The notes under the pieces: model-generated
Told to the model about the DNA's origin: nothing
Seen by the model: only the letters and a program-made list of their open reading frames with translations
Database searches by the model: none
In this document: positions 2,624 through 27,458 of the stretch, piece after piece
Numbering within the stretch: position 1 is the stretch's first letter
Layout of the letters: every line of letters begins with the position of its first letter
Assembly: GCF_008065115.1 (NCBI RefSeq)
Contig: NZ_CP042913.1
Location: 5,095,257-5,159,256 of the forward strand
Reading direction: 5' to 3'
DNA: 64,000 nt
Source: Bythopirellula goksoeyrii
GTDB lineage: Bacteria > Planctomycetota > Planctomycetia > Pirellulales > Lacipirellulaceae
Made by a program: the position numbers and the translations under genes

Positions 2624-2699
2624 AGTGCAACGAGGGAAATGTTCCGAACTGAGCCTCTATTCTAATCGGAATCTACGGAATGGTCGAATCAAGAAAACT

Positions 2700-2815
2700 G
2701 CTTCTACCGAAAATCCACGAGAGTCGGCCTTAGCCGGAGGACCACGTCCCCCGGGATTACTGGTAAAAGCTACGCAATCGCTTCCCGGACCTCGTGGAGG
2801 TCCGGCTAGGACGAA
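2700..2815. repeat. Imperfect inverted intergenic repeat
   Basis: Two arms, one reading TAGCCGGAGGACCACG and a downstream one reading CGTGGAGGTCCGGCTA, can pair with 13 of 16 positions and enclose about 50 bases. The element sits between two minus-strand genes. It resembles the dispersed GC-rich intergenic repeats of planctomycetes, but this assignment is from memory and untested. Confidence 0.4.
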
Positions 2816-2830
2816 AGAAGAAACGACACG

Positions 2831-4558: not shown

Positions 4559-4647
4559 GGCTAGTCCTTTCTGGATTCCTCCCGATACCAAGTAGGGGGC
4601 TCCCAAGATTTTAGCGAGGAATCTCTCTTCTTGCGAGTCTCCCTGAG

Positions 4648-5028
4648 TCAGCGATTGCCCTGCCCCAACAAGAAATCTCGCAACACAATGGCATGATTGA
4701 CGTTGATATTGCTAGCCGCATAGAGCAGCGTGATACGCTGGCTCTCGGTCGATGTGAGCAGTTCCCGAACTGCATCTTTTTTGCCCGCTAGTTCAGCCAG
4801 ATATTTCTGGCGAAATTCCCTGAATATTGACTCTTCATGGTTGAACCAATTGCGTAGATCCGTCGAGGGAGCCACGTCTTTGGCCCAGAGATCAAGGTGA
4901 ACGGCTTCCTTCTTCATGCCACGTGGCCAAAGGCGATCCACAAGCACGCGGAAACCATCCCCTGAATCCACGGGCTCGTAGACTCGCTTGATCACGATGT
5001 CGTGGGTTTCATGTTTAGAGGTCGCCAT
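4648..5028 (-). CDS. DUF488 family protein (YeaO-like)
   Basis: The protein is 126 aa from the ATG at 5028. The start overlaps the end of the anti-sigma factor gene (stop at 5015) by 14 bases, implying translational coupling. Family hallmarks are the N-terminal IKRVYEP, the RVLVDRLWPRG motif, and LLYAASNINVNHA near the end. DUF488/YeaO proteins have no firmly established reaction. Being third in a sigma/anti-sigma operon suggests it belongs to the same stress response, which is inference. Confidence 0.85.
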   Translation of the reverse strand: MATSKHETHDIVIKRVYEPVDSGDGFRVLVDRLWPRGMKKEAVHLDLWAKDVAPSTDLRNWFNHEESIFREFRQKYLAELAGKKDAVRELLTSTESQRITLLYAASNINVNHAIVLRDFLLGQGNR

Positions 5029-5257
5029 CGATTTCTGCCAACGTCTGCTGCAATGCTTCGTACTCTTCGCGACACTCATCGCAAACGGCCAGATGCTCTT
5101 CGACCGCTTGCAAGCCCGCCCTTATCGACTTGCCGGCCAGGTGCTGCTCGGCAAACTCTGCCACCAATGCCAGGCATTCCTCGCAATTCAGTTCAACGTC
5201 TTTGGTGAGTGTCACCAGACGCAGGAGATTTTCTAATTCATGCCGGGAAAATGCCAT
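5015..5257 (-). CDS. Zinc-finger anti-sigma factor
   Basis: This 80-aa protein begins at the ATG at 5257, preceded by GAGGAAG. It has the HLAVCDEC arrangement (H-x3-C-x2-C) of zinc-finger anti-sigma proteins and an extra NCEEC pair upstream. No membrane segment is present, so it would be a soluble, possibly redox-responsive, anti-sigma factor. It starts 10 bases after the sigma-factor gene ends, as expected for a cognate pair. Binding to the upstream ECF sigma factor is inferred from this linkage. Confidence 0.75.
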   Translation of the reverse strand: MAFSRHELENLLRLVTLTKDVELNCEECLALVAEFAEQHLAGKSIRAGLQAVEEHLAVCDECREEYEALQQTLAEIDGDL

Positions 5258-5267
5258 AGTTACTTCC

Positions 5268-5873
5268 TCAGTGGGTAGATGCCAAATCATCTGCTCGATA
5301 ACCGGCACTCTGCAATGCGGACTTGAGCTTCTTGCGGGCGTCGTGGGTCAGCTTGTAAACGGCGTTGCGGTTGCTTCCCAGGTGCCGGGCGATCTCATCC
5401 TGAGGCATTCCGCGAAGCTCAGCGAGCAGCACGGTACGCTGCCTTTCGGTCAAATTGGTTTCGATTAGCTCGTGCATTTTGTCAAATAGTTCTTGTTGCT
5501 GGGCTTGCGACTCGGGGTCTGGCGATGAGTCAATGGCGCGTGTCGGCACAAAGTCGGCATCGACGAGCACAGCATCAAGCGAGACATCCTTCCAGCGGCT
5601 GCGGCGCAGCTCGCCTAGTGCCACGTTAATCGCAATCGAAGTCGCCCAAGTTACGAATCGACTGCGGCCTTGAAACTGATCCAGGCGACTGAGAATCCGC
5701 ACGAGCGCATCTTGCGCCGCATCCTCGAGAAACGATTCATCACAATGCGCCCGATTGGAGAGCGCTTTGTGCAAGTTTCGCAGCAACACCTCGCGGAGGT
5801 CTGCGAGTGCCAACTCGCGGACCACACCCCCTTGGCTCAGTTCGGCAACCCAAGTGTCGTTTTCTCGATTCAT
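5268..5873 (-). CDS. ECF-type RNA polymerase sigma factor
   Basis: The protein is 201 aa from the ATG at 5873, preceded by TAGGA; the longer frame upstream runs through a repeat element and is not used. Region 2 is seen around ALVRILSRLDQFQGRSRFVT, with the typical F-x-T-W core-binding stretch. Region 4 is seen as LTERQRTVLLAELRGMPQ followed by the DEIARHLGSNRNAVYKL helix-turn-helix. It heads an operon with the anti-sigma factor and the DUF488 gene. Target promoters are unknown. Confidence 0.9.
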   Translation of the reverse strand: MNRENDTWVAELSQGGVVRELALADLREVLLRNLHKALSNRAHCDESFLEDAAQDALVRILSRLDQFQGRSRFVTWATSIAINVALGELRRSRWKDVSLDAVLVDADFVPTRAIDSSPDPESQAQQQELFDKMHELIETNLTERQRTVLLAELRGMPQDEIARHLGSNRNAVYKLTHDARKKLKSALQSAGYRADDLASTH

Positions 5874-5917
5874 GACGATTCCTAGGGATGCAAACCGGAA
5901 CGAGCAACAAACTCTCC

Positions 5918-6028
5918 CCTCGTCCCCACGCTCTGCGTGGGGACGCGAACCTTGCCGCTCCGCGGTGAATTGCGCCATTGACGCGGAGCGTCAGCTTCTG
6001 CGTACCGACGGGGACCGTCGGCACGAGG
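5918..6028. repeat. MITE-like intergenic element with three stem-loops
   Basis: The 111-bp element begins CCTCGTCCCCAC and ends GTCGGCACGAGG, which are inverted copies at 10 of 12 positions. Inside are three hairpins: CGTCCCCACGC/GCGTGGGGACG (perfect 11-bp stem, 3-base loop, 5921-5945), GCTCCGCG/CGCGGAGC, and CCGACGG/CCGTCGG. It lies between the promoter end of the sigma-factor gene and the CMD gene. Similar 'CCCACGCTCTGCGTGGG' repeats are widespread in bacterial genomes; no function is established. Confidence 0.7.
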
Positions 6029-6069
6029 ATGCCGAGAAAGCGTGCTACTCATTCCAGCCCATGATCGCA

Positions 6070-6615
6070 TCAACAGTTTGTCATCACGGGGGCGGCTGGG
6101 AAATCAACTTCCGTTCCCGCGACGTGATTAAAGTAGTTCGTGAAAATGTTGAGCGCTACATTCGCAACGATCTCAGCGATTTCGCCATCAGTGTACCCCG
6201 CTTCACGGACCTGTTGAAGATCGTCGTCGGAAACCACTCCCCTATCGCGGACGACCTTCTGGGCAAATTCCAGGGCAAACCGCTCCGCGTCGTCCTTAGC
6301 CTCTGCCCGGCGGGCGTCGCATGTCTCTGACTCGGAGAGCCCGGCCCCTTTGCCTAGGGCCGTATGGGCCGCGAGGCAATAGTCGCAACTATTCACTTCA
6401 CCCACCGCCAACGCGATCTGCTCACGTAGACGAGGGGATAATGCCCCAGTTGAAAGTTGCTGGCTGAAACCCAGATAGGCGTTGGCCACGGCGGGCGAAT
6501 TAGCCATTGTGGCAATCAGGTTGGGGACCATCCCCATTTTCTTCTTTACGGTGTCAAGGATGTGCTGTTGTGTGGTGTCGGCAGCGTCTTTGTTGACAGG
6601 TTGAATGCGTGCCAT
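6070..6615 (-). CDS. Carboxymuconolactone decarboxylase / AhpD-like peroxidase family protein
   Basis: The protein is 181 aa from the ATG at 6615, preceded by GAAGGACAAG. The core motif EVNSCDYCLAAHT gives the CxxC-x3-H redox site of the AhpD/YciW-like CMD family. Members of this type reduce peroxides through the Cys pair. It is monocistronic here, next to the repeat element. The catalytic partner (a thiol reductant) is not in the window. The peroxidase role is inferred from the intact CxxC and has not been shown. Confidence 0.87.
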   Translation of the reverse strand: MARIQPVNKDAADTTQQHILDTVKKKMGMVPNLIATMANSPAVANAYLGFSQQLSTGALSPRLREQIALAVGEVNSCDYCLAAHTALGKGAGLSESETCDARRAEAKDDAERFALEFAQKVVRDRGVVSDDDLQQVREAGYTDGEIAEIVANVALNIFTNYFNHVAGTEVDFPAAPVMTNC

Positions 6616-6863
6616 GGTTCTTGTCCTTCGCTTATGGTTGGATGAATAATGAGTGGGAATTGCATCCCTTTTCACCTTAGATGTCGCGGCGACACATATT
6701 CTTACCAAAGGTTTTTGAAGATGCATTCGTCACAGTGAATTGAGTTACGCTCGGAAGGCGAAATTAGCCGCAAATAAGTTGTCCTGAGTGGGGCTACAGA
6801 TTATACTAGGGGCCATCCTCGTCGCCTTACTGTTCCATCGAAGCTGAACTAAAGAGGGTCCAC
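6616..6863. promoter_or_regulatory. Divergent intergenic region
   Basis: These 248 bases separate the divergently transcribed CMD gene and the large repeat protein gene, so both promoters must lie here. No strong box is evident by eye. The large gene has a good ribosome binding site (AGAGGG) 8 bases before its ATG. Confidence 0.4.
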
Positions 6864-9800
6864 ATGTCTCGTCTTTCCCGCCGCCAATTCTCGCGATCTC
6901 GGCAGGCGACTTCTTGGATCGCATCTCCCTATGCCCGGCGTTTGCGGGTAGAATCGCTGGAAGACCGACGGTTATTGTCTATCACGGTCGACACACTCGT
7001 AGACGAGGCGGACGGCAGCATTGTCGACGGCGATATTTCCTTGCGCGATGCAATCGCACTGGCCCCGGCTGGAGAAACGATCGACTTCTCAGTTACCGGT
7101 ACGATTGACCTCACGCTGGGGCAACTGACTATTGGCCAGAATCTCACGGTCACCGGTCCCGGCGCAAACAATCTTACCATCAATGCCGGTGGCTCTTCGC
7201 GCGTGATGCGCGTTACCGGTACGACGACCACCAATATCAGTGGGCTCACGCTAACCGGTGGGCAGGCGGACCAGGGTGGCGGACTTCGGAACTACAGTCC
7301 TGCTTCCACCACACTTACGGATGTGGTGGTCACAGGCAATACGGCTACTACCAATGGCACCGACGCAGGTGGGGGCATCTGGAGCAATGGCAACCTGACG
7401 CTCGCAGATAGCACCGTCTCCAATAACATGGCTCCCAACGGAACTAGTTCTGGCGGCGGCATCTGGAACAGCAATCTACTGACCATCACCAATAGCACCC
7501 TCTCGGGCAACTCGGCCAATTCTGGTGGCGGTGGCATTTTCAACAGCGTTCTCGGCACAGTGACCATCACTAATAGTACCCTCTCCGGCAACTCGGCCGG
7601 TTCCAATGGCGGCGGCATTTGGAACAATGGCGGTACCACCACGATCACCAGTAGCACCATCTCGCGCAATTCGGCCAATTCCTGGGGCGCCGGCATTTAC
7701 CACAGTTTCGGCACCACGACCCTCAGTCACACGATCGTGTCGGGCAATTCTTCTGCTACTTTAGGCAATGAAATCCGCCTACAAGGCGGCACGGTCAACC
7801 TCAACAACTTCAACCTGATCGGCGACAGCAGCCAGACGACCGCCCAAGCCTTGTTCGGCGTTGGCGCCGGGGCCACGGACATTCTGGCTACCAGCAATGG
7901 CACGAATCCCACGGCGCTTGGCTCGATTCTCGACGCTACACTGGCCAACAATGGGGGGCCGACGCTGACGCATGCGCTGGTGCCAGCAAGTCCAGCGATC
8001 AATGCCGGCAACCCGGCGATTGCCTCCCCCCCGACCAACGACCAGCGGGGGAGCGGTTTTCCGCGTATCATGTTCGATCGTGTGGACATCGGTGCCTATG
8101 AATTCAACGATGTCACCATCCCCGGCGGTGGTTTGGTAGTAAGCACCCTCGACGACACCTTCGACGGTATCTATACAACGAACAATCTAAGCCTTCGCGA
8201 AGCCACCTTATTGGCTAACGTCAATCCGGGCGCCGACAACATCACCTTGGACGCCAGCCTGTCCGGCGGGACAATCAACCTTTCGCTGGGAATGCTCACC
8301 CTGAGCGATGATGTGACACTGACTGGCCTGGGGGCCGATCAACTCACGATCGACGCGGGGGGCTCGTCGCGCGTGATGCTGGTTGCCGGTACGACTACCG
8401 CCAACATCAGCGGGCTCACCCTGACCGGTGGGCAGTCGGACCGGGGTGGTGGATTGCGAAATACCGCCACGGCCACCACCACGCTTTCCGATGTGGTGAT
8501 CACTGGCAATACTGCCACTGCGACAGCCGTTGACGCCGGAGGTGGCATCTGGAACACCGGCCACTTGACCATTACTGGCAGTACGATTTCTGGTAACACC
8601 GCTTCCGCTGCATCGGGCGATGGGGGAGGAATTTTTACTGGAAATCCCAACTCAAACCTGATCATCACCAACACAACTATCACCGGCAACTCGGCAGGCG
8701 ATGATGGTGGTGGCCTCCGAGCGTGGAATAATCCAGCGGTCACGATTTCCCACAGCACGATTACGGGCAACACGGTCAATGGTAATGGCGGTGGTATCTA
8801 TTCATCAAATAACGCGGTCACTACGGTTGGCCACTCGATCATCTCGGGCAATTCTGCCGGTGGTTTAGGCAATGAAATCCACCTACAGAGCGGCACGCTC
8901 AACCTCAATAACTACAATCTGATCGGCGACAGCAGCCAGACGACCGCCCAGGCCTTGAACGGAGTTGCCGCCGGTGCCACGGACATCCTGGCCACCAGCG
9001 ATGGCACCACACCCACGGCGTTGGGCTCGATCCTCGACACGACACTCACCTACAACGGGGGGCCGACCCCCACCCACGCACTGCTGCCGGGAAGCCCGGC
9101 CATCGATGCGGGGAATCCGGCGATTGCCTTCCCCCCGGCCAACGACCAGCGGGGCGCGCCCTTCGAACGACAGAATGGCACGATCGACATCGGTGCCTAC
9201 GAGGAGCAATCGCTTAACCTGGTGGTCGACACACTGACCGACGAGAGCGACGGCGACTACTCGGCCAGTGATCTCAGTCTGCGCGAAGCGCTCGAGTTAA
9301 CCAATGCAAACCCCGGGGCTGATACAGTCAGCTTCGATGCCAGCCTCTCCGACGGGACAATCAACCTTTCGCTGGGAATGCTCACCCTGAGCGATGACGC
9401 GACACTGACTGGTCTGGGTGCCGATCAACTTACGATCGACGCGGGTGGTTCGTCGCGTGTGATGCGGGTGACCGATACGACGACCGCCAACATCAGCGGG
9501 CTCACGCTGACCGGTGGGCTGACGGACCGGGGTGGCGGACTGCGCAACTTCGGTACCACCACGCTGACGGGTGTGGTCGTTACCGGCAACATGGCTACCA
9601 CCTCCAGCACGGACGCAGGGGGAGGCATCTGGAGCAACGCCAACCTGACGCTGGTCGATAGCACCCTCTCCAATAACAAGGCTCCCAACGGCCTTGGTAC
9701 TGGCGGCGGCATCTGGAACAGCAATCAACTGACCATCACCACTAGCACAATCTCGGGCAATTCGGCCAATTCTGGTGGCGGTGGCATTCTCAACGGCGGC

Positions 9801-11000
9801 TCAGTGACCGTCACCAATAGCAGGCTCTCGGGCAATTCGGCCATTTTCTCTGGCGGCGGCATTTTCAACACCGGCTCAGTGACCATCACCAATAGCACGC
9901 TCTCGGGCAATTCGACCAACAGTAAAGGCGGCGGCATCTGGAGCAGCAATCAACTGACCATCACCAATAGCACCCTCTCGGGCAATTCGACAAGTATTCT
10001 AGGGGGTGGCATCTACAGCTCCGGGGGCACGACGGCGGTCGCCAACAGCACTCTCTCGGGCAATTCGGCATCTCGTGGCGGTGGCATTTACAGCTACGGC
10101 GGCAATCTTGACACGTTGACGGTTACCAACAGCACCCTCTCGGTCAACTCGGCAAGCTCTCAGGGGGGCGGTATTCTAACCTACGGTATGGAGACGACGC
10201 TAAACAACACGATCGTCGCCAATAGCACCTCAGGGGGTGATCTTGCGGCCCTCTCTGGTGGTACTTTTTCTGGTACCGACAATCTGATTGAAGACGGTAG
10301 CGGGGGCGCAGTCGCCACCGTCACCGGAGACCCGATGTTGGGGCCTCTGGCCGACAATGGGGGACCGACGCTGACCCTCGCGCTCCTGCCGGGGAGTCCG
10401 GCCTTGGATGCGGGGAATCTGGGGATCGTGTTTGATGCGAACGCGTTCGATCAGCGGGGGATGCCGTTTGCTCGGGTGGCGCAGGGAGTTTTGACAGGAA
10501 GTCCTCTCCCCCTGCGGATCGACATCGGTGCCTACGAAGCGCAGATTCCGCCTTCGGCTGATTTCGACAGCGATGGTGATGTGGATGGTCGGGATTTCCT
10601 CAGTTGGCAGCGCGGTTTTGGCAAGGCGAATGCCGTGCGCGCCGACGGCAACAGTGATGATGACACCGACGTCGACATTAGTGATCTGGCGGCTTGGCAG
10701 GTGAGTTACGGCGACACTGGATTGCTGCCGCCACCGGTAGTGGCCAATGAAGGTGCAACGGCTGCGGTGGTGGATTTGGCATTGGCTTGGGAATCGGTTT
10801 ACAGTGTGGAAGAGGGGGAAGAATTTGCACTGCTGGAGAGTGGGCCGATCGATTCAGTCATCGAGAGTATTGCCGTTGATGTCGTAGCGAAGCCGACGCG
10901 CTCGGGAGAATTCTGCGAGGGTACTTCGATTAATGAACTTGATCAGCAGCAGCAAGAATTGTGGCTTAGCGACGAGATGCTGGAGCGGGTGTTTGGGTAG
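6864..11000 (+). CDS. Giant secreted beta-helix repeat protein with LEPRxLL N-terminus and dockerin loop
   Basis: This 1378-aa protein opens with a basic N-terminus ending RVESLEDRRLLS, the planctomycete LEPRxLL signal. Three modules follow (about residues 37-410, 411-790 and 790-1290), each starting with a CSLREA-like stretch (LSLREATLLAN, LSLREALELTN). Each is filled with repeats such as TITNSTLSGNSA that form a right-handed parallel beta-helix, and ends with IDIGAYE. A dockerin-like loop (DFDSDGDVDGRDFLSWQR) and an acidic C-terminal tail end the protein. There is no PEP-CTERM helix. It is probably a surface adhesin or matrix protein; the ligand is unknown. Confidence 0.88.
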   Translation: MSRLSRRQFSRSRQATSWIASPYARRLRVESLEDRRLLSITVDTLVDEADGSIVDGDISLRDAIALAPAGETIDFSVTGTIDLTLGQLTIGQNLTVTGPGANNLTINAGGSSRVMRVTGTTTTNISGLTLTGGQADQGGGLRNYSPASTTLTDVVVTGNTATTNGTDAGGGIWSNGNLTLADSTVSNNMAPNGTSSGGGIWNSNLLTITNSTLSGNSANSGGGGIFNSVLGTVTITNSTLSGNSAGSNGGGIWNNGGTTTITSSTISRNSANSWGAGIYHSFGTTTLSHTIVSGNSSATLGNEIRLQGGTVNLNNFNLIGDSSQTTAQALFGVGAGATDILATSNGTNPTALGSILDATLANNGGPTLTHALVPASPAINAGNPAIASPPTNDQRGSGFPRIMFDRVDIGAYEFNDVTIPGGGLVVSTLDDTFDGIYTTNNLSLREATLLANVNPGADNITLDASLSGGTINLSLGMLTLSDDVTLTGLGADQLTIDAGGSSRVMLVAGTTTANISGLTLTGGQSDRGGGLRNTATATTTLSDVVITGNTATATAVDAGGGIWNTGHLTITGSTISGNTASAASGDGGGIFTGNPNSNLIITNTTITGNSAGDDGGGLRAWNNPAVTISHSTITGNTVNGNGGGIYSSNNAVTTVGHSIISGNSAGGLGNEIHLQSGTLNLNNYNLIGDSSQTTAQALNGVAAGATDILATSDGTTPTALGSILDTTLTYNGGPTPTHALLPGSPAIDAGNPAIAFPPANDQRGAPFERQNGTIDIGAYEEQSLNLVVDTLTDESDGDYSASDLSLREALELTNANPGADTVSFDASLSDGTINLSLGMLTLSDDATLTGLGADQLTIDAGGSSRVMRVTDTTTANISGLTLTGGLTDRGGGLRNFGTTTLTGVVVTGNMATTSSTDAGGGIWSNANLTLVDSTLSNNKAPNGLGTGGGIWNSNQLTITTSTISGNSANSGGGGILNGGSVTVTNSRLSGNSAIFSGGGIFNTGSVTITNSTLSGNSTNSKGGGIWSSNQLTITNSTLSGNSTSILGGGIYSSGGTTAVANSTLSGNSASRGGGIYSYGGNLDTLTVTNSTLSVNSASSQGGGILTYGMETTLNNTIVANSTSGGDLAALSGGTFSGTDNLIEDGSGGAVATVTGDPMLGPLADNGGPTLTLALLPGSPALDAGNLGIVFDANAFDQRGMPFARVAQGVLTGSPLPLRIDIGAYEAQIPPSADFDSDGDVDGRDFLSWQRGFGKANAVRADGNSDDDTDVDISDLAAWQVSYGDTGLLPPPVVANEGATAAVVDLALAWESVYSVEEGEEFALLESGPIDSVIESIAVDVVAKPTRSGEFCEGTSINELDQQQQELWLSDEMLERVFG

Positions 11001-11117
11001 TGTGGAAGCAGTTTTGAGGAATCGTTCAGCGTCACCTCGATGCAGCGCCGATTGAGATTCGATGTCGGAACAGTGCTACCGCTCGTTACGGCCTACGGGT
11101 ACTCACCCAAACGAAAA

Positions 11118-11145
11118 ACGGGCCCGGGATTGCTCCCGGGCCCGT
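11118..11145 (-). terminator. Duplicated clpX terminator
   Basis: An 11-bp perfect GC stem (ACGGGCCCGGG and its complement) with a 6-base loop is followed on the minus strand by a run of five T. It now lies downstream of the SulP gene and the clpX remnant, so it would end the carbon-uptake operon. Confidence 0.85.
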
Positions 11146-11207
11146 TAATGGTTGGTACGCAACTTAACCCCCGCGGCGGACCGAAGTCCAAACCTCGGGC
11201 TTGAACG

Positions 11208-11354
11208 TTACGCACTCTTTGTCTGGGGTTCGCTGAACAGCTTTTCGCGGCCATCGACCACGTCGTCGGTCAACATATAACGATTGCCACGCGGTTGGTC
11301 AGGAAGGTCGTACATAATGTCGAGCATGACATTCTCGATGATCGATCGCAGACC
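11208..11354 (-). pseudogene. clpX 3' remnant (48 codons)
   Basis: The remnant encodes residues 377-424 of the ClpX at 19805..21079 (from [14 protein letters not shown] to the stop) without change and has no start. It directly follows the SulP stop. It is a scar of the event that placed the carbon-uptake operon here. It should not be translated as a protein on its own, although the frame is open. Confidence 0.93.
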
Positions 11355-11370
11355 CCAAACCACCCTGATG

Positions 11371-13074
11371 CTATAAAACAGGCTTTACTATTCGCTTACG
11401 GGCAGCCAGTTCATGCGTTGAAAGGGGTTTGTGATTGTCCAAACCTTGCAATTCAAGCCTCACTCCTGCATTTTCAAAATCATGTTGCAAATCGTGTAGT
11501 TTCTCCATGACGGTATGGTCAACAAACTTGGTCTCGGAAAGGTCAAGTGTGACATTCTTTTTTTCTGTGATGCCAAGTCTGACTAGTTGTCGCCGAAAAA
11601 TAATCCAGTTGCTAAAAACTGCTGAGTAACGCGCACGAACTACAGCCTGGTTGTCCGACTCAAGTTCAATGTCCAGATACGGTTTCATCAAAGAGTGAAT
11701 TGGCACTCCATTGAAGAGGTGAATAACGAGCTTCACACCGATGCCAATGAGGATACCAATCAGTAGATCCGTCGCAAGGACGCCCACCAGGGTAGAAACG
11801 AATATCAGGAGTTGTTCTTTGCCAATCGAGTAGATGTGAAAGAATTCCCGGGGATGAGTAAGGCGGAATCCGGTGTAGATTAGCATCGCCGCCAAGGCGG
11901 CCAGGGGAATGCGGTGCAACCACATGGGAATCAATGCTACACACAGAAGCAGGAACACACCGTGCCACATGTCGGCAAAGCGAGTGCGAGCACCATTGTC
12001 GATATTCGCTTTGCTGCGCACGATTTCTGAAATCATCGGTAAGCCTCCGACAAGAGAGGAACAGAGATTGCCCACCCCGACCGCGAGAATATCGCAATTC
12101 ATATTAGTCTTGCGTTTCCATGGATCGATGATGTCCACGGCTTTTGCGCTCAAAATAGATTCTAGGCTACCGATGACAAAAAACATAAGTACCCACTTTA
12201 TAGCTTCCCCACGGTGTTCACTATCGAAGGCAGAGAAGTCGGGAGTTGCGATATAGTCAAACATACCAAAAACGCGATCAGGCATATTGACAAGGAAAGA
12301 CTCACCGAGCTCGTAGGTATGCCCGTGGAAGGAATAAGTATGGGCATGCATTAGGTCAAAATACATACCTAGTGGAACGGTCGCGAGAATGACCACCAGC
12401 GCGGCCGGTACGGACTTGAGCCAGGCAATCGCCTTCTGTCCAAGTGGCCAGAGAAACATGATCAGCACACCACATACCCCCACGAGAGCAATTTCTGGAT
12501 TCATGTCCTGAAAATATTGTGGGATGTTCTCAATCATTTCCAGCGGTTCCCCGCGCGCCTGCACACCCAGAGCCACGGGTAATTGCTTGACGATAATAAT
12601 GACGCCGATCGCGGCCAACATGCCATGAACCGCTGAGAGGGGGAAAAACTCACCCAGTACACCAGCCTTGAGCAATCCAAAGATGATTTGCAGAATGGCA
12701 GCCACGACCCCTACCGCCAACGCCATTTTGTAGGCTGTCATGTCGGTTTGGCTAAAGCCACCGATGGCACCGTCACCGCCAAATCCTTCGACGCAGCCAA
12801 TGGCAATGACGATCAAACCTGCTGCCGGACCCTTGATCGTTAGTTCTGAGTTGCTGATGAAAGTCGTTAAGATAGATCCTACGATCGCCGTAAAAATGCC
12901 GGCAATCGCCGGATACCCACAAGCCAAAGAGATGCCCAGGCACAGTGGCAACGCAATCAGAAAAACCAGAAAGCCTGAGAGCATGTCATACTTAATGTAC
13001 TTGGCAAACCCGTCAGCGTTGCCGACGGGCTTTTCAAGAGGGATCGGAGACGAAGCGGTTTCATTTGTAGCCAT
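11371..13074 (-). CDS. SulP-family anion (bicarbonate/sulfate) transporter with STAS domain
   Basis: This 567-aa protein has about 10-12 membrane segments. The SulP signature region near the N-terminus reads [20 protein letters not shown], and a C-terminal STAS domain carries [20 protein letters not shown]. SulP carriers move sulfate or bicarbonate; BicA of cyanobacteria is a bicarbonate member. The gene lies 26 bases after a DabB-like gene in a DabA-DabB operon, which favours bicarbonate as substrate (inference). It reads into the duplicated clpX terminator. Sulfate transport remains possible. Confidence 0.9.
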
Positions 13075-13100: not shown

Positions 13101-14552
13101 TTAATGAGAAGTCGCTCTAACCGCAACTTCATGGATATTTACAGATGGGGGAGTCTGTTCTGGAATGGATTCTCGAAACTTTAGACGGGCTATGATTTCC
13201 GTAGCAGCATGATAGCGCGATGCAACCCCCGGCTGGGGTATGAGACCCCCTCCGAGTATCAATGCTGAAAGTATCAACATCGCGAAACGCTCTCTCCAGC
13301 GCGCTTTGATTGAAATTGATGTCGTATGTTGAGTTCCCGTGAACAATTTGAAGTATGCCTGTAGCACGGCGATGCTGTTCAAGGCGGCCGCCAAGACTAC
13401 CAAAACACCCACCAGAGGACTGACTGCGACGGCACTTTCCAAGAGCAACTCTGCTCCAATGAAACCGACCGTGCCAGGAAAGCCAATACTTGCCAGCCCC
13501 GTCAGCAAAAAGAATACAGCAAGCGATGGCATGTGTTCGTAGAGACCGTGGTAGTCTGCTAAAGAGAGACGTCCCGACCTCGCTTCGAGTGCCCTAAGGG
13601 TGAGTCCGAGTCCCGCCAGTGACATCCCCACCGAGAGCCACACACACAGCCCACCGGTCAAACCAATTGGCGTGGCGACTTCCAAACCGACCAACACCAA
13701 CGAAGCGTGGCTCAGAAACAAGTAACAGAAAAACCGCCGAGCCTCATACTGCACCAATGCCATGCCAGCGGCATAGACAGCAGTAGTAAGGGAAAGCAAG
13801 GCAATGCATTGCAAAGCCCACTCAGGAGAAACGGGCAGCACTAATCTCACCGCGGCATAGGCACCCGACATCGGTGCTACGAACAGGAGAGCCGTGCCTA
13901 GGCTTGCGTTCTCAAACAAGTCCGTCATCCAGCAATGTAGCGGAGCAACCCCGCTACGAATCAATACCGCCAGGGACAACATGCCGATTGCCAAATTCTT
14001 CATCATAGGGCTAGCAGCGGGGAGAATGAGCCACCCGGCGATCAGCAACCCCGAGCAGAGCAGCATATGCGATGTAAAGACACGAGTCGATCGGCCACGC
14101 GCACGCAATTCGAACCAAGGTGGTATTACTTGAGCACTCAGCAGTGCGATGATACCCCATGGCTCGCGACAACTCAAAAGAGCCAGTAAGAGTGAAAGGG
14201 AGACCAGATTCCAAGCAAAAGGGAACCGCCGACTCTTGGTCTTCATGGTAGTAAGTGTGACTAGAAAAAACAAAAGAGCCGCAAGCGGAATCAATGGCGC
14301 ACTTAGTTCATCCACGACGATCGCATCGGGCCCCATAATCGGAGTCACGAAGTCCCAATGATCATGAGCCTCAAAAGTGTGGAGTGAATTAAAATCCTGC
14401 CACTCTCCCACGGTGAAACACAACGCCGTGAACGTGAATACGATCGCTCGGCGCCAGGCCAGTTCAGGATCGCGAACGCGACACACGAACACTGCACCAA
14501 TGAATGGCGTCAGAATGGCTAATTCCAACCAGGGCAAGTGAAGTTCAAACAT
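13101..14552 (-). CDS. DabB-like NuoL/Mrp-type membrane subunit (second copy)
   Basis: The protein is 483 aa from the ATG at 14552 (GAAAGAAG upstream), with about 13 hydrophobic segments of the proton-conducting NuoL/M/N family. It includes the conserved [20 protein letters not shown] stretch. In DAB systems the NuoL-like DabB is the cation-coupling partner of DabA. This operon has two such genes; this one is more divergent and may be an auxiliary half. It could otherwise be a stray Mrp/Nuo-like subunit, but its position between dabB and sulP argues against that. Confidence 0.82.
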
Positions 14553-14658: not shown

Positions 14659-16053
14659 TTACAACCGCAACTCTTCAACAATTTCGCTGTGGACTTGAAC
14701 ATCGTCAGAAGCTCGCGAACGCCCCCTCGAAAGAAAATCAGTCCACCTTCTTTCTGCCGCATCACACCACTTAAACAAGCGCTGAAATGGGTGGACGACA
14801 AACTCATCGAGAATGCCATCGAGATAACCTCGATGGGAAGCAAAGCGATAGACCCAGTATTGCAGGCTGAGGGGGAGCCACCGGCCCCATACACTTTTAT
14901 CTCCTGCCGAGCGCCCGCCAAGGGCATTCTCAATTGTGTGATAATCATGCAGCAATGTTGGCGCTCGCAGGAGTTGTAGAGTCCGCATGCAGGCATGCCC
15001 CAACATGTGGATCAAGGCGATATATCTCAATCCCAAGCCGATTTCAGCGACGATGATTCCCACCTGGATCAGCGATGCATAGGCCAGCGCGCTCTTAATG
15101 TCGGTTTGTACTCGAGCCAGCAGCGTAGCCATCAGCGAAGTAACGATCCCGATCGTAATCACAGCAACTGCCAATGGAACGGAGACTTCCAGTAGTGGGC
15201 TCACTCGCAATAAAAGATACGCGCCCAGGTGTACCGACAGGGCACCATAAAAAATCGCACTTGACGGAGTGGGGCCCTCCATCGCCCGCGGCAACCAACC
15301 CGAAAACGGCACCAACGCCGACTTGCCTGCTGCGGCAATTAACAGCAATAAACCAACTGTAAGCGCTTGATCACTCGTCAAAACGGCTATCCCGTCAGGC
15401 CAGGAACCTGTCCCGACCAACCGATCAAAGTCTCCAGCGCCCGTCAAATGGTGCATCGCCACAGCAGCCATCAAGAAAGCGGCATCCGCTATACGATAGA
15501 CACTCCAGACGCGGAGGCCATTGATCACTGGCGTCGGGCGTTCATGAAAATAAGCCACCAACAGTGCCGACGACAGACCAACCAGTTCCCATCCCAAGAA
15601 CAAAACTTCGATAGTTCCCGCGAGACTACTGATGATCATTCCCAACAAGAAGAAGGAATAACATACATAGAACCTTCCGTAACCTGATTCGCGATGCAAA
15701 TAGTGACTCGTAAAGGCACTCACTGTTCCACATAAGAGAAACGAGAGAATAACAAAGGGAATTGAAAGTCGATCAAAGACGAACTTAAGATGAAAATGAA
15801 AGTGTTGTTGAGGAATGACGACCCAGTTGCCCAGTTCAATGGGCACATGCCTAGTCCCAACTGTCAGCATCATCACGAGCATCAAAAGAGAAACTAACAA
15901 GCCAATGACCGTCGCAGCGTAGGCATATCGATTGATTGTTTTCTCACTGAGAGGTCGGCCTACGAGTGGCGGAATTCCAAGGATTGCTACTAAGGCTGCT
16001 GGGCAAACCAACACAGCAATTCCTAATACAAAAAACATGTTATTGGTGCTCAT
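14659..16053 (-). CDS. dabB: DabB, NuoL-like subunit of the DAB inorganic carbon transporter
   Basis: The protein is 464 aa from the ATG at 16053, only 11 bases after the DabA stop. It is a polytopic member of the NuoL family with the conserved stretches [20 protein letters not shown] and [20 protein letters not shown]. Its C-terminus carries the DabB-like segment [13 protein letters not shown]. DabB partners DabA at the membrane and probably energises CO2 capture with a cation gradient (family knowledge). The pairing with an adjacent dabA carrying an intact zinc site makes the call firm. Confidence 0.87.
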
Positions 16054-16064
16054 CGTTAGCGCGC

Positions 16065-19000
16065 CTATTTTTGGGATGGTGTAATACTCGCAAAGCCCAG
16101 ATGATCGCGCCAGCCGCGGTACCAATCGCCTGAGGAAGCGACTTCTGGCAGCTCGTCTGTCTCTGGAGAATAGGATTCAAATTCGCCTTGGACATAACAA
16201 TGAACTTGCGATGTCTTGGGATCAATAGTGGCCAACTGGACCCATTCTCCGCGCACCAGCCGAGCGATTTCTTCATTCTTCTCCATGATGTTCAACATCG
16301 CCTCTGGCGTCGTTTCGATGACGAACAAAATGCGAAGGGGTTCGTGGATTTCTACCATTTGGGCCGAGAGACCAGGCCTCAAATCGCTAGCGGCTCCCGT
16401 CATGACACCCAACAACGAAGTGATGTTATGTGGCAATTTGTTTCCGCACCCGTACCCTTCCGAATCGACGGTCGAAAAAAAGTATTCGAGACTGATGCCT
16501 GCACATACCGGCATCGCGGCTTGCAGGATGCGAGTGAGAATCGAGCGGTCCTCATCGTCTTGGCTTGGGTCATAAGATGTAAGAAAGGCACGTCGATCGA
16601 GAAACAGCCCACGATTCCACTCGCGTCTCCCAACGATGCATAGGGAGTTCGTTGCATGGTTGTACTCGGGCCTCGCCTGAGAAAGGTCTTCAGAACGCGA
16701 TTCGACATGCTTGAGAGCCGCTTCAGGAGATTCTTTAAGGCTCACAGCGCGAAATCTGCGACACCGCTCATGGGCATTGCGACGGCGCGCCTCAACCAGG
16801 ATTTCCTGCGTCTTGCCGAATAATTCGCGATGAGAAAGCGGAAGGCGATCCAGGTCGTAGAACGCAACACTGTCATCGCACGTATCATGGTAACAGCCGA
16901 CGAAGACAGTTTCGGCGGGAATTTTCAGACCACGATCTTCCAGGAGAACCCGCACGCGCGGATCATTTGCCATACGTGAGATTGTCCGTGCATTTGGTCC
17001 TCCTCTAGCTCCTGCACAAGCGCCGCAATTGTATGCCGATTCGTGGGGGTTGTTCAGACTTGAGGAACCATGGCCGCAAAACATTACTAACCGAGAGAAG
17101 TTGCTCGTGAGACCAATGTCTTCCAAAATGCGTGTGACGATGCCTGTCATTTCCTCGATGCTGTAACCAATGTGACCATTGGTTTGGCCAGGTGAATCTT
17201 CGGTCCGTTCTAACTGCAGTTCTGTAGCCGAAGGAGCTTTTACAAATCCGCCGATTGCGTTTCGTAACCGAGCCGTCGCTCGGGGAAAGAGAATTCGCAT
17301 CACCAAAGGCAGCGAGGCAAACGAGCCAAACAAGGCAGCAAACCAGCCGCCGGCAAAGGTACGGCTCCCTAGGTGAACCCGCTGTGTGACAGTTCCGATA
17401 GTCCGCCGACGATTTCTATGGAGATGTTCTTTTTGCTGTTGAGAGTACACCACCTGCTCTACGACATAGTGGGAAGGTTTGATTATCACCGGACAGAGCG
17501 GCGTGAAGTAGGCATCAGCAGCACCTCGATAGTACATGGCCACGGCAAAGAAACCCGCAGCGCCAAGCGTCTCACATTCCGGGGCTACTTCCTCCAAATG
17601 CCTGCGAAACGACTCCTCGCGATCGTCGATACAGGTTACAAACTGAAATGCAGGTGTGGCTGAATCAATAAAGAATGGTTTCTTTGCCCGCACGGCTAAT
17701 CGGCGGGTGTGAACCAACATCGCATCCAAGGCCTGCAAGCGATAGCGGCGCTCAAACGCCCGTTGATAGATCCGCCGACGGTGGATGCTGGAAAAGTTTT
17801 CAACCTCACGTAGCACCTTTAACCAGTTGCCTTCGTGAAGCTTGTAGAGCACTTCCGGCGTCCAACCCAATAGCTGAGCAAGCTGAAAGATGGTGAACGC
17901 CCGCTGATCGATATTCGGAACGTTGTTGGTCTGAATGTGATTGGCTAAGGCTGTGCGAACTCCTCTAAGATCTCCTCGATAGCCAATCTTGTCGTCCGCT
18001 AAGTACGCTATAGCCAATCGATCCAGAATCAGCCTGACTGCCAGAAACTCGATCAAAGTTTGGGGGGGTACGGGTCTTGCTACTCGGTCGCCACGGCATT
18101 CCAATTGCCATAACATGCCAGCAAATCCCTTCAGAGCTAGAATTGATTGCTGAAGAAAGTCTGCCTCCTCATGCTGCCCTACTCCCAGCATTTCAAGCGA
18201 CTGGGCGATTGATTCCAACGGAGTGATCCCTTCTTGCTGGATACGTTTCAATTCCGCTCGAAGTCGTCGCATCCAATGATCCGGCGGACCATAAGGCGAT
18301 TGATACAAAGCTGAAAACGATGCAAAGAAACCATTTGCTTGAGGAAGTGGCCAACTTCCAAATCCTTGATCCATAAACGCAGCACAAAAACGAATCAACA
18401 CCTCATGAACTAATCGGTCACTGTCGCCCCCAGTCGCTTCTAGCAACACATCTCGGTGCCGGGACGCGAGCGGATGAGTCGCCTCTGGTGATGGGGTACA
18501 AGCAACGCCATCCCTACACACGAACCAAAGCAAATGCAGTGTAAATGCTTCCCAGGTCGAGAGGTCCCAGTGCTCGATGTCAGGCTTGTCAAAGTACTCG
18601 AATATTTTGTCGACAAGTTCCCGAGCACGCACTTCTTCATGAGTTGGAGGGTGACCATTTCGCAGGTCACGCATCACCCAGCGTCGAGTGGATTCGATCA
18701 AATGATCTTTAAAAGCGGGCATCGTTTCTTTTCTAAACTTGCTCAACGCATCCGTTTCGGCCACAACCCAGCGCAATTCGGCAATAGGTCCACTTTGCAG
18801 CGGGTATGCCAACATGTTCAGGTTCAAGCTGAAGCGAGTACCCAAGAATCCGAGAAACTCGTCCCCTCGGTCACCAAGATCATCACGGAGAACGGCTTCG
18901 ATGTCCTCGGGAAGGATCCTGCCCTGCTCGAGCTTTTTGCGATAGCGCTGCTCGGGCAAATAGGGATGACAATTAAATAATTTGCCACCCAAGACCACGG

Positions 19001-19220
19001 CCTCGTCAAATGGAAGGTGTTCAAATGCGTGCAACGTGTTGTGATGCACGAAGGCCGTAATCGGTCCCTGTGCCGGCAGCAGATGCGTTGCTTCCTCAAT
19101 GATGTTCCTCAAATGCCCTAGCCTGGCTAATTGAGCAGCCTTGAGTGATTCTTCCGGAACCCGAGGACTCGACCCGGAGGTCGCATTTCTGTTAGTAGAA
19201 TGCAAAGTGGAAACGTCCAT
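16065..19220 (-). CDS. dabA: DabA, carbonic-anhydrase-like subunit of the DAB inorganic carbon transporter (DUF2309)
   Basis: I chose the ATG at 19220 (AAGG upstream) over a GTG 39 bases earlier; the product is 1051 aa. The zinc site is clear: C530 and D532 in [10 protein letters not shown]717 in CGHGSSS, and C732 in YNCGACAG. The spacings (2 and 15) equal those of the characterised DabA of Halothiobacillus. DabA with DabB hydrates CO2 vectorially to bicarbonate. Here the operon also has a second DabB-like gene and a SulP carrier. In a presumed heterotroph the likely use is supplying bicarbonate for anaplerotic carboxylation. Confidence 0.93.
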
Positions 19221-19327
19221 TGTGTACTGCCTTGTAGTACTGCCACAGACTGACACCACTTAGACAGAGTCCGAAGTGCGCATGGTGAAATCGGCAAGAG
19301 CTAGAGAAAACTCACAGGCTAAAGAGG

Positions 19328-19618
19328 TTAGCTCAGTGGAGGGCCGCGCAGGAAAAGAGTGGGACCTGTGCAGAAGTCTTCCGGTAGAATCACCGGACTC
19401 AATGGCCTGCCGAATGAGGCTAATTTCTCAGCAAGAGCGGCATCAAGAACTGCAACTAAATCAGTCTCGCCATCACTCACGACAACATTCTCAGCAGCTT
19501 CGGCTGAGAAAGCATCGGAAGCATGAAGACGCTCATGGCCGCGGAATTGACCTGATGCGACTGCTAGCAAGCAGGCAAGCGACAAAAGCAGCGTATTTGG
19601 GATGGCACGATGATACAT
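19328..19618 (-). CDS. Small secreted protein of unknown function
   Basis: This 96-aa frame starts MYHRAIPNTLLLSLACLLAVASG, a plausible signal peptide, followed by a short acidic mature part and a Pro/Gly-rich end. It lies 107 bases upstream of dabA in the same direction, so it could be the first gene of the carbon-uptake operon. I do not recognise a family. It has no strong ribosome binding site, so it may be spurious. Confidence 0.45.
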   Translation of the reverse strand: MYHRAIPNTLLLSLACLLAVASGQFRGHERLHASDAFSAEAAENVVVSDGETDLVAVLDAALAEKLASFGRPLSPVILPEDFCTGPTLFLRGPPLS

Positions 19619-19707
19619 GATTCGGAGTATGGCAATATATGTTGCACTAGCTGCGGTGTCAAATCCTGCCTAGTCTGCCCTCAAATAAGGCATCATGTGG
19701 GTTGCCC

Positions 19708-25303: not shown

Positions 25304-25936
25304 ATGTCTAACCAAGCGAACAACACGGCGCGCGCTAGTCGTATTGAAGTTGCACCCTGGGCCTACAATCCCTCGGCTTGGAGTCAGCGGATTCCCATCT
25401 GCATTCTAGCCGCAGTGGCAACGCTGATGGCTACCTACATGGCTCTCTACCAGTGGGGCTTAATCAACGCGGTATGGGATCCCTTCTTTGATGAAGGTTC
25501 GCAGAATGTGTTAGATTCCAAAGTAGCACAGACAATGGACCGCTGGATCGGAATCCCAGACGCTGCTTTGGGCGCATTCGCCTATTTAGGAGATGCTGTC
25601 CTGGGGTTGGCAGGCTCGACGCGACGCTGGCAATATCGACCCTGGTTGGTAATCCTCTTCGGCATTGACGTCATTCCGCTCGGTATTGTCAGCAGCGTTC
25701 TTGTCATTCTGCAGGGCGCTGTCGTCGGCTCGTGGTGTTTTCTCTGCCTCGTGACGGCAGTGATCTCCTTGATTCTTGCCTACTGGGCCTATGACGAAGT
25801 CTATTCCTCTTTGAAATACCTTCTGCTCGTCTGGAAAAAATCGCATCGCATTTCGGTCGTATGGAACGCATTTTTCGGAATACCTACTACAATCTCGCGA
25901 CAAGCGGGTGACGAATTGATGCGGGAGGTGAACTGA
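25304..25936 (+). CDS. Vitamin K epoxide reductase (VKOR)-like membrane protein
   Basis: This 210-aa protein has about five membrane segments. It carries the VKOR-type redox motif GSWCFLCL (CxxC) and the upstream [14 protein letters not shown] and [15 protein letters not shown] stretches of this bacterial subfamily. VKOR homologues recycle quinone-linked disulfide exchange at the membrane. The usual outer Cys pair is not obvious, so it may differ from disulfide-forming VKORs. Its stop overlaps the SPW-repeat start (TGATG). Confidence 0.8.
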
Positions 25937-26280
25937 TGTGGGCCCGAGTCGTCGAGTGCATGTTGGGATGTTGGTTGTTGATGAGTCCGTTTATTTTCGG
26001 CCATGCCAGCGATACTTTTGTTTTGTGGTCAAACGACCTGCTAATTGGCGGTCTGGTTATTGTGTTAGCTTTAGCTTCGTACTGGTCCCCCACAGCCTGG
26101 GCTCACTGGATGTTGATATTCGTAGGGATATGGCTCATCGGTTTTGGACGGCTAGGTTCGACACCACCCCTACCCGGAGCACAGCAGAATCAAATCATTC
26201 TCGGACTGCTTCTTACTATGTTTGCAATTATCCCGAACCATGCCTCGCATCCCCCGCGAGGATGGCAAACATCAGATTAG
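25936..26280 (+). CDS. SPW repeat membrane protein
   Basis: This 114-aa protein has three to four membrane helices with the SPW-repeat pattern (LLMSPFIFG ... SYWSPTAWAHW). It is translationally coupled to the VKOR-like gene (TGATG overlap, GGAGGTG ribosome site inside the upstream gene). SPW-repeat proteins are of unknown function. The epimerase-VKOR-SPW order suggests a joint envelope or redox stress role. Confidence 0.82.
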   Translation: MWARVVECMLGCWLLMSPFIFGHASDTFVLWSNDLLIGGLVIVLALASYWSPTAWAHWMLIFVGIWLIGFGRLGSTPPLPGAQQNQIILGLLLTMFAIIPNHASHPPRGWQTSD

Positions 26281-26333
26281 AAAGTTGAACCACAAGTATT
26301 ACCTTTGCTAACTAGAACATAAGAAAGGAAAAT

Positions 26334-27458
26334 ATGTTTCAAACAAGTGATTTAAGAGAGCTCGTCCAGGAGCGACAAACCCCTTTCCTCTCGTTCTACA
26401 TGCCAACTCATGCGGCAGGACGTGAGCAACAGCAAGACGATATTCGCCACAAGAATCTCATACGCGAAGCGGAAACTCAATTGAAAGCTCAATCTGATAT
26501 CGATGAGAGCTCCAATGAAAAACTAATCAAGCAACTGAAATCGATTCCTCAAGACAAGAATATATGGGGCCACCGTAGTGCGGGGCTGGCAGCCTTCGCG
26601 GCACCCGATTTTTTCCGCGTTTATGTGTGTCCCCTAGTGATGCCGGAACAAGTGAGCGTAGGGAAGTGTTTTCATCTCAGTCCGTTGCTTCCGCTCTTGC
26701 ATGCGAACGGACGATACTACTTACTCGCACTTACGAAGGATTCTGCCGAGCTATTCGAAGCTACTCGCTATCACCGGACATGTAGTGATCTGGAAATAGG
26801 CGGTCCTATTGAAATCGATGGTGCGGAAGAAGCCCTCCAGTTGCACTCACATCTAGCACCCACACAAGGAAAAGGAGGTGTTGGCGAAGCCCTATTCCAT
26901 GGTCAAGGAGCACCTGATGACCGGGAGAAGACAACCGTTGTGAACTACTTCAAACGGCAGGTTGACCCCCAGGTTTCTCATTTTTTACATGGGAATAATA
27001 CCCCACTCGTGCTGGCCTGCGTTGACTACCTGGCTCCTATCTATCAGGAGGCAAATACCTATCCGCACCTGCTCGATAAACATGTCTCAGGAAATCCCCA
27101 AGAACGAGAGGAAAAAGAATTATTGCATGAAGCATGGGAGTGCCTGGAACCACGATTTCAGAAACTCGAATCCTTGGCATTGAAAAGATTTGGAGATCTG
27201 TCGAGCAGTGAACGCACTCTAGATGATGAGAAAGCAATAATGGAAGCGTCTCAAAATGGTCAGGTCGAGACGATCTTTGTTCCAATACAACCCAATCGCC
27301 TTTCTGCAACCTCTTCAGACATGGCAGAAGTAAGTCATGTGATTGAGAATTCTGTTTATCAAACTCTCAACCATGGAGGGGAGGTTATGTCTGTCAAGCA
27401 GGTTCCGACTAAGGAAGATGGCAATCCCTCGGCGCTGGCAGCAATACTGCGTTATTAG
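26334..27458 (+). CDS. Bacterial archaeo-eukaryotic release factor (baeRF) family protein, Balon-like
   Basis: This 374-aa protein begins MFQTSDLRELVQERQTPFLS, a start typical of baeRF proteins, followed by the SFYMPTHAAGREQQQD stretch and a C-terminal Pelota/eRF1-like part ending near VETIFVPIQPNRL. Related proteins (Balon of Psychrobacter) bind stalled or resting ribosomes and are called hibernation factors. AAAGG lies before the ATG. It follows the SPW gene by 53 bases, so it may share the sigma-54 transcript. Ribosome hibernation is inferred from the family. Confidence 0.72.
   Translation: MFQTSDLRELVQERQTPFLSFYMPTHAAGREQQQDDIRHKNLIREAETQLKAQSDIDESSNEKLIKQLKSIPQDKNIWGHRSAGLAAFAAPDFFRVYVCPLVMPEQVSVGKCFHLSPLLPLLHANGRYYLLALTKDSAELFEATRYHRTCSDLEIGGPIEIDGAEEALQLHSHLAPTQGKGGVGEALFHGQGAPDDREKTTVVNYFKRQVDPQVSHFLHGNNTPLVLACVDYLAPIYQEANTYPHLLDKHVSGNPQEREEKELLHEAWECLEPRFQKLESLALKRFGDLSSSERTLDDEKAIMEASQNGQVETIFVPIQPNRLSATSSDMAEVSHVIENSVYQTLNHGGEVMSVKQVPTKEDGNPSALAAILRY

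Follow-up and report, generated by a model that had tools for sequence, protein, structure and literature searches.

The window analysed here, the whole stretch of 64,000 nucleotides taken from the Bythopirellula goksoeyrii chromosome, contains an operon encoding a protein of the DabA family, two membrane subunits (one NuoL-like, one NuoM-like) and an anion carrier of the SulP family. With moderate confidence, and judging from sequence comparisons, the first three products are proposed to form a proton-coupled CO2-hydrating complex of three subunits with a Complex-I-like proton path, representing a distinct class (class II) within the DabA family. The system used for comparison is DAB2 from Halothiobacillus neapolitanus (DabA2-DabB2; PDB 9rd0/9rd8/9rd9; PMC13144422), the sequence of which was rebuilt from the PDB alignments, with all cited residues checked. 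The two systems have in common a DabA-family protein with the fold of β-carbonic anhydrases, the same zinc ligands, an Asp-Arg dyad and a finger hairpin, as well as an antiporter-like membrane partner. In contrast to DAB2, however, the DabA described here consists of 1051 instead of 870 residues, has His (Asn in some relatives) in place of Leu658 and lacks the finger residue Glu444; its membrane partner possesses the ion-pair Glu of NuoL, Tyr for H260 and Arg for K347, and is devoid of TM12–15; an extra NuoM-like subunit is present, and dabA is located upstream of the membrane genes. The authors of the DAB2 structure tied its function to the finger Glu444, the lost NuoL ion-pair Glu and the tilted TM12–14 (PMC13144422). 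While the gene order has been known since 2017, the residue signature of the clade with respect to DAB2 looks new, although this is not certain: no description of these changes was found in the accessible literature searched.

Gene order and genomic context

The four main genes are all encoded by the minus strand in the order dabA, NuoL-like, NuoM-like and sulP, with intergenic spacings of 11, 106 and 26 bases. The dabA gene (16065..19220; PF10070 E 1.6e-233) encodes a His/Asn-class DabA of 1051 residues when read from the ATG at 19220, on which the numbering used here is based; an alternative GTG start (open reading frame 16065–19259) would yield 1064 residues. It is followed by the genes for the NuoL-like (truncated DabB-like) subunit of 464 residues (14659..16053, ATG at 16053; PF00361 9.5e-40), the NuoM-like subunit of 483 residues (13101..14552, ATG at 14552) and the SulP carrier of 567 residues with a STAS-like C-terminus (11371..13074; PF00916 2.9e-54). 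Upstream of dabA, on the same strand, a small open reading frame (19328..19618) codes for 96 residues with a signal-peptide-like N-terminus. Over its whole length it shares 50% identity (E 3e-20) with a frame that precedes dabA in Bythopirellula polymerisocia, a species carrying a matching locus (NZ_SJPS01000015.1); a Pfam search with the small frame gave no match. A sigma-70-like promoter, TTGACA-17-TATATT (19634..19662, minus strand), matches the consensus in 11 of 12 positions; it is suggestive only, and the sites in the promoter scan as a whole were no more frequent than in shuffled sequence. At the end of the operon there is an intrinsic-terminator-like hairpin (11117..11146, minus strand) with a stem of 13 pairs, ten of them G-C, and a T-rich tail. 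A single transcript is presumed, running from the promoter-like site at 19662–19634 through the small open reading frame as its first gene and the four main genes to the hairpin at 11146–11117. Beyond the end of the operon, positions 6864–11000 of the window encode, on the plus strand, a large repetitive secreted protein of 1378 residues with a dockerin-like/parallel-repeat appearance. Elsewhere in the window, at 25304–27455 on the plus strand, genes for VKOR, SPW-repeat and baeRF-family (archaeo-eukaryotic release-factor-like) proteins are consecutive, with an epimerase gene alongside.

The first-pass annotation considered this operon unusual, a view not borne out by the comparison of loci. 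Both antiporter genes adjoin dabA in 57 of the 60 named planctomycete or related loci with 3.2 kb or more of sequence after dabA, and the same order, i.e. COG3002 upstream of a NuoL homologue, NuoM (COG1008) and SulP (COG0659), is given for the clade C ybcC operons in the COGNAT survey (PMC5700660). This 2017 survey deals with neighbourhoods only, DabA being then without an assigned function, and its accessible text does not mention the residue changes in the active site, the finger or NuoL/NuoM. The three exceptions (L085, L086 and L103) have a His/Asn-class dabA and a NuoL-like match of 564–735 bits elsewhere in the genome, i.e. the operon is split, as judged from these matches. The best 80 loci are mostly planctomycete, with a few named Verrucomicrobia or other; class II outside the planctomycetes was sampled via plasmids and via MAGs (named Verrucomicrobia and others), the names of which may be wrong.

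The genome of B. goksoeyrii (6.47 Mb, a single contig) harbours three DabA loci, three β-carbonic anhydrases and one full Complex I antiporter set. The two further Dab loci (L004, 3164–8547, and L005, 4667–8966) are canonical in possessing both Leu658 and Glu444; the one in L005 sits upstream of cysD/cysN-like sulfate-activation genes. The sole RuBisCO-family gene (L204, 1432–2727, minus strand) encodes, by its context, a RuBisCO-like protein, and the gene beside it is one that we read as four-carbon acid sugar kinase-like. With this as the only RuBisCO-family gene, the Calvin cycle, and thus a supply of bicarbonate to it, is unlikely, and on this ground autotrophy was rejected as a reading. 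The occurrence of such a system in a heterotroph, which had been thought odd, has ample precedent, because DAB/Mps complexes are found in many heterotrophs (PMC13144422, PMC10880623). MpsAB from Staphylococcus aureus, for example, is a DAB-family complex serving the carbon supply of a heterotroph, but it has a two-gene core and sodium coupling has been proposed for it (PMC6689103).

Zinc site, position 658 and membrane finger of DabA

DabA matches PF10070 over the entire profile (positions 1–747 of 747) with 777.9 bits, the cut-off being 25. The zinc-site spacing noticed in the first pass, C530-x-D532 and H717-N14-C732, indeed equals that of the DabA2 ligands, and the agreement extends to the residues themselves: C530, D532, R534, H717 and C732 align with C351, D353, R355, H524 and C539 of DabA2 (PMC13144422) and are invariant among 57 aligned DabA sequences. 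The match in spacing thus reflects homology and not chance. In a set of 103 long DabA, in which six genomes are present twice, the zinc ligands and the Asp-Arg dyad are unchanged throughout; the codons of the ligands are located on the minus strand at 17631..17633 (C530, Cys in 103/103), 17070..17072 (H717, His in 103/103) and 17025..17027 (C732, Cys in 103/103). The D590/H585 relay of DAB2 is retained in the His/Asn-class DabA as well. The AlphaFold2 model of DabA (pLDDT 84, pTM 0.85) has β-carbonic anhydrases as its top fold matches, CsoSCA (2fgy) being superimposed with a Z of 11.3 and 4.6 Å over 323 residues, and the unrelated entries of the fold library gave a Z of 3.2 or less. A Cys-His-Cys zinc site is common to DabA, CsoSCA and the other β-carbonic anhydrases; DabA, however, is membrane-attached, shares 10–14% identity with them and contains extra N-terminal and finger regions.

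The term canonical, used in the first pass, holds for the zinc ligands, but not for the site equivalent to Leu658 and not for the membrane finger. The assignment of this leucine to H855 (codon 16656..16658, minus strand) follows from an ungapped RPE motif (RPEYNH versus RPEWGL) and from where Leu658 lies in the DAB2 structure. The site is occupied by His in 89 and by Asn in 14 of the 103 DabA, and by Leu in none. In the 2026 cryo-EM study of DAB2, Leu658 was invariant across 150 homologues and was suggested to contribute to the missing free carbonic-anhydrase activity of DAB2, canonical β-carbonic anhydrases having at the equivalent site a Gln or His in the transition-state position (PMC13144422). 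H855 might hydrogen-bond the zinc-bound intermediate like the Gln/His of ordinary β-carbonic anhydrases, and catalysis may then lean less on a proton-driven rearrangement than it does in DAB2. With Leu658 replaced by Gln, Asn, Gly or Ala, DAB2 is still functional in vivo, whereas in vitro no activity was gained with L658Q (PMC13144422). Site 658 can thus accommodate a polar residue, as seen for L658Q and L658N, and His or Asn there may change little.

The membrane finger comprises residues 592–657 (17250..17447, minus strand), which form a hairpin of helices 592–619 and 622–644 in the AlphaFold2 model. At the Glu444 site, B. goksoeyrii DabA has A629; none of the 103 DabA is acidic there, and none contains any acid within residues 619–649 of the finger. 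Basic residues are found at R620, near the tip, in 102/103 and at H616 in 90/103 sequences. When duplicates were removed and shorter and canonical DabA were added (131 sequences), 92 His and 14 Asn sequences were without a finger acid and 24 Leu sequences had one; a single Leu658 sequence (L194) has no acid in the 444 column, which is either an alignment effect or a true exception. On the DabA tree, the exchange between Leu and His/Asn is a single change with 100% support, the Asn sequences forming one clade. Since class II thus stems entirely from one branch, its differences represent one evolutionary event rather than repeated co-variation. The combination of His/Asn and no acid persists down to approximately 33% identity to the B. 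goksoeyrii DabA. Leu658 and Glu444, together with H260 and K347 of DabB, are kept in loci from Nocardia, Haloarcula, Nitrobacter, Paracoccus, Salinivibrio, Ideonella and Rhizobium as well as in the two B. goksoeyrii paralogues; the sampled canonical DabA and DabB hold the DAB2 states at most coupling sites.

The NuoL-like and NuoM-like subunits

The AlphaFold2 model of the NuoL-like protein (pLDDT 81.7) exhibits 11 membrane helices and, after them, a long helix (409–442). Its superposition with E. coli NuoL aligned 408–423 residues spanning approximately 1–575 (Z 38–41), as would be expected if TM12–15 were absent and the last helix corresponded to the lateral helix of NuoL, the latter match being read from the aligned ranges. 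About 100 residues follow the K347 site, compared with 204 in DabB2. In all 88 NuoL-like proteins, Glu, i.e. the NuoL ion-pair residue, is found at the DabB2 I151 site, Tyr replaces H260 and Arg replaces K347, and R182, D185, K235 and K310 are retained; most residues of the NuoL-type cytoplasmic half-channel are kept, too. In class I DabB from the seven genera named above, H260 and K347 are preserved, the Glu is missing and 178–226 residues come after K347; R182, D185 and K235 are variable among them. A separate recruitment of the NuoL-like partner from Complex I was considered, and its HMM scores favour true NuoL over class I DabB. In the partner tree, class II forms a clade of its own (100%) that is joined to NuoL with 74% support, and the AU test did not reject a grouping of classes I and II (p 0.578). 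In Complex I, NuoL and NuoM are homologous neighbours, and the NuoL-like protein keeps two ion pairs and TM1–11; the operon differs from Complex I, however, in being without electron-transfer modules, in a NuoL-like subunit without TM12–15 and in a NuoM-like subunit without most relay residues.

In the first pass, the two antiporter genes were both called NuoL-like and counted as two DabB; their lengths of 464 and 483 residues were right, but the second gene has NuoM as its best family (TIGR01972, 6e-43) and NuoM/NdhD chains as its top structures. Its score of 147.2 bits is under the TIGR01972 cut-off of 263.8, and by sequence the protein is a NuoM-like homologue and not a NuoM. In comparison with E. 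coli NuoM, the TM5 Glu is lost, K234 (TM7) is replaced by Arg in 24/24 sequences, a gap occurs at K265 (TM8 Lys) and H348 (TM11 His) is mostly Val; an acid (E368, nearly invariant) is present one position after E407 (TM12 Glu). With its NuoM-like family match and most proton-relay residues lost, the second gene was ruled out as a DabB; judged by sequence, its product also falls short of a complete pump subunit, and since the relay residues are mostly lost, the subunit may be a scaffold only. An arrangement consisting of an intact NuoL N-half and an intact NuoM C-half antiporter was also considered and is weakened by the C-half being without the TM8 Lys and the TM11 His, so that of its relay residues only an acid close to the TM12 Glu is left.

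Fusions of NuoM-like halves to DabB and to a NuoL-like protein argue for physical association and joint work of these subunits. In the B. goksoeyrii locus L004, a DabB fusion of 862 residues has a NuoM-like C-terminal half (PF00361 match; HMM 1.5e-11; hhalign 94.7%), and one class II NuoL-like protein in L181 bears a NuoM-like segment. A common origin of this C-terminal half of DabB and the NuoM-like subunit was weighed; hhalign gave 94.7%, but the tree supported it with only 67 and a long-branch warning. The L181 locus (2515–12601, genome G147) contains two divergent His-class dabA of 836 and 882 residues with their own NuoL-like partners of 653 and 665 residues; a separate NuoM-like gene is lacking there.

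The mutational data on DAB2 speak against a complex that simply works like DAB2. The exchanges E444A and E444Q abolish DAB2 activity, yet class II is never acidic at that site; K347A and H260A impair its function, yet Arg and Tyr occupy these positions in 88/88 NuoL-like proteins; I151E halves growth, yet Glu is fixed there; and TM12–15 of DabB2, which hold the DabA finger, are absent here (PMC13144422). If it did work like DAB2, the NuoM-like protein would have an accessory or stabilising role, and the substitutions would represent lineage drift compensated by other residues. In line with this possibility, the zinc site and the dyad are intact, the D590/H585 relay is retained together with most residues of the NuoL-type cytoplasmic half-channel, the Leu658 variants of DAB2 are functional, and DAB1 exists in a form of three subunits, one of them a small additional membrane protein (PMC13144422). 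On balance, it appears unlikely, though not remotely so.

Proposed coupling and the SulP carrier

In the preferred three-subunit complex with a Complex-I-like proton path, whose hydration activity, coupling to protons, contacts between subunits and direction we infer from the sequences and models, DabA with its β-carbonic-anhydrase-like zinc site would be cytoplasmic and seated on the NuoL-like and NuoM-like membrane subunits. It would convert CO2 to bicarbonate in a reaction driven or gated by protons flowing inward. In place of the missing finger acid and TM12–15, the NuoM-like neighbour, perhaps through E368, and/or H616 and R620 of the finger may complete the periplasmic half of the proton path. 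The finger would act as a basic instead of an acidic element, with coupling rebuilt around the NuoL-NuoM pair and thus presumably nearer to that of adjacent Complex I subunits than to that of DabA2-DabB2. The SulP carrier, supplied from the same transcript, probably carries bicarbonate or another anion tied to CO2 hydration. CO2 hydration is linked to NuoL/NuoM-type subunits also in the cyanobacterial NDH-1MS, with which the likeness is one of analogy only, the HMM matches to NdhF3/NdhD being general; moreover, NDH-1MS differs in being driven by electron transfer (PMC13144422).

The affiliation of the carrier with the SulP family was confirmed (184.7 bits versus PF00916, cut-off 23.2), but the STAS domain ascribed to it in the first pass was seen only as an alignment to the STAS regions of SLC26Dg and prestin, no match to Pfam STAS reaching 1e-3. 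The protein was also aligned to BicA, and it scored 94.9 bits with the BicA equivalog NF050096 against a cut-off of 880, generic SulP models scoring better. The BicA Asp, which we take to be its sodium site, is replaced by Glu here and in all but one of the aligned SulP, as in SLC26Dg. Besides this carrier, the genome encodes a single further SulP (L208/L209, L203; 2.230–2.233 Mb), the gene of which adjoins a β-carbonic anhydrase gene, a pairing that hints at bicarbonate; from sequence, bicarbonate is a plausible substrate of the carrier, sulfate or another anion being the alternatives. In loci with wide flanks, SulP is found near dabA in 22/37 and is absent near 15/37. In L059 (2731–14978, genome G013), a SulP gene adjoins a dabA of the canonical type, followed by NuoL-like and NuoM-like open reading frames.

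According to the first-pass annotation, bicarbonate would be supplied by two routes at once, hydration of CO2 by DabA-DabB and import by a BicA-type SulP, possibly serving anaplerosis in this heterotroph. Neither the score of the carrier with the BicA equivalog nor the Glu at the BicA Asp position agrees with such an importer, SulP is missing from the 15 loci just mentioned, and three β-carbonic anhydrases already exist in the genome. In its favour are the linkage of SulP in the 22 other loci, the β-carbonic anhydrase beside the second SulP and the unlikely supply of a Calvin cycle, and the two-route arrangement is an unlikely, though not remote, alternative. Still less probable is a distinct class of energy-coupled carbonic anhydrase in which a competent His/Asn DabA would be coupled via NuoL-NuoM, not via the finger acid, and which would possibly be reversible and proton-pumping. 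Very doubtful, finally, is an energy-converting carbonic anhydrase with a competent DabA, in which a pump-like NuoL/NuoM pair would use the CO2-bicarbonate reaction to move protons outward or to set pH and SulP would exchange bicarbonate for another anion. Under usual conditions, the hydration of CO2 releases little energy with which protons could be pumped, and few relay residues are left in the NuoM-like subunit. In favour of this reading, the complete NuoL ion-pair set, used by Complex I for gated pumping, is restored in 88/88 proteins, His/Asn occupies the catalytic-helper site, the operon is linked to SulP and ion export was proposed for these operons generally in the COGNAT survey (PMC5700660).

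The 2026 DAB2 structure left open the lack of carbonic-anhydrase activity in purified DAB2 and how proton flow drives the complex (PMC13144422). As a large natural clade differs from DAB2 at Leu658, Glu444, the ion-pair Glu and TM12–14, each of these elements can be tested by comparison and by swaps. The operon of B. goksoeyrii and its relatives points to a third way of building an energy-coupled CO2 hydrator, beside DAB2 and the cyanobacterial NDH-1MS, in Planctomycetota, a phylum not usually associated with CO2 capture. Differing from DAB2 at nearly every proposed coupling site, the clade represents a natural test of how CO2 chemistry is coupled to proton flow.
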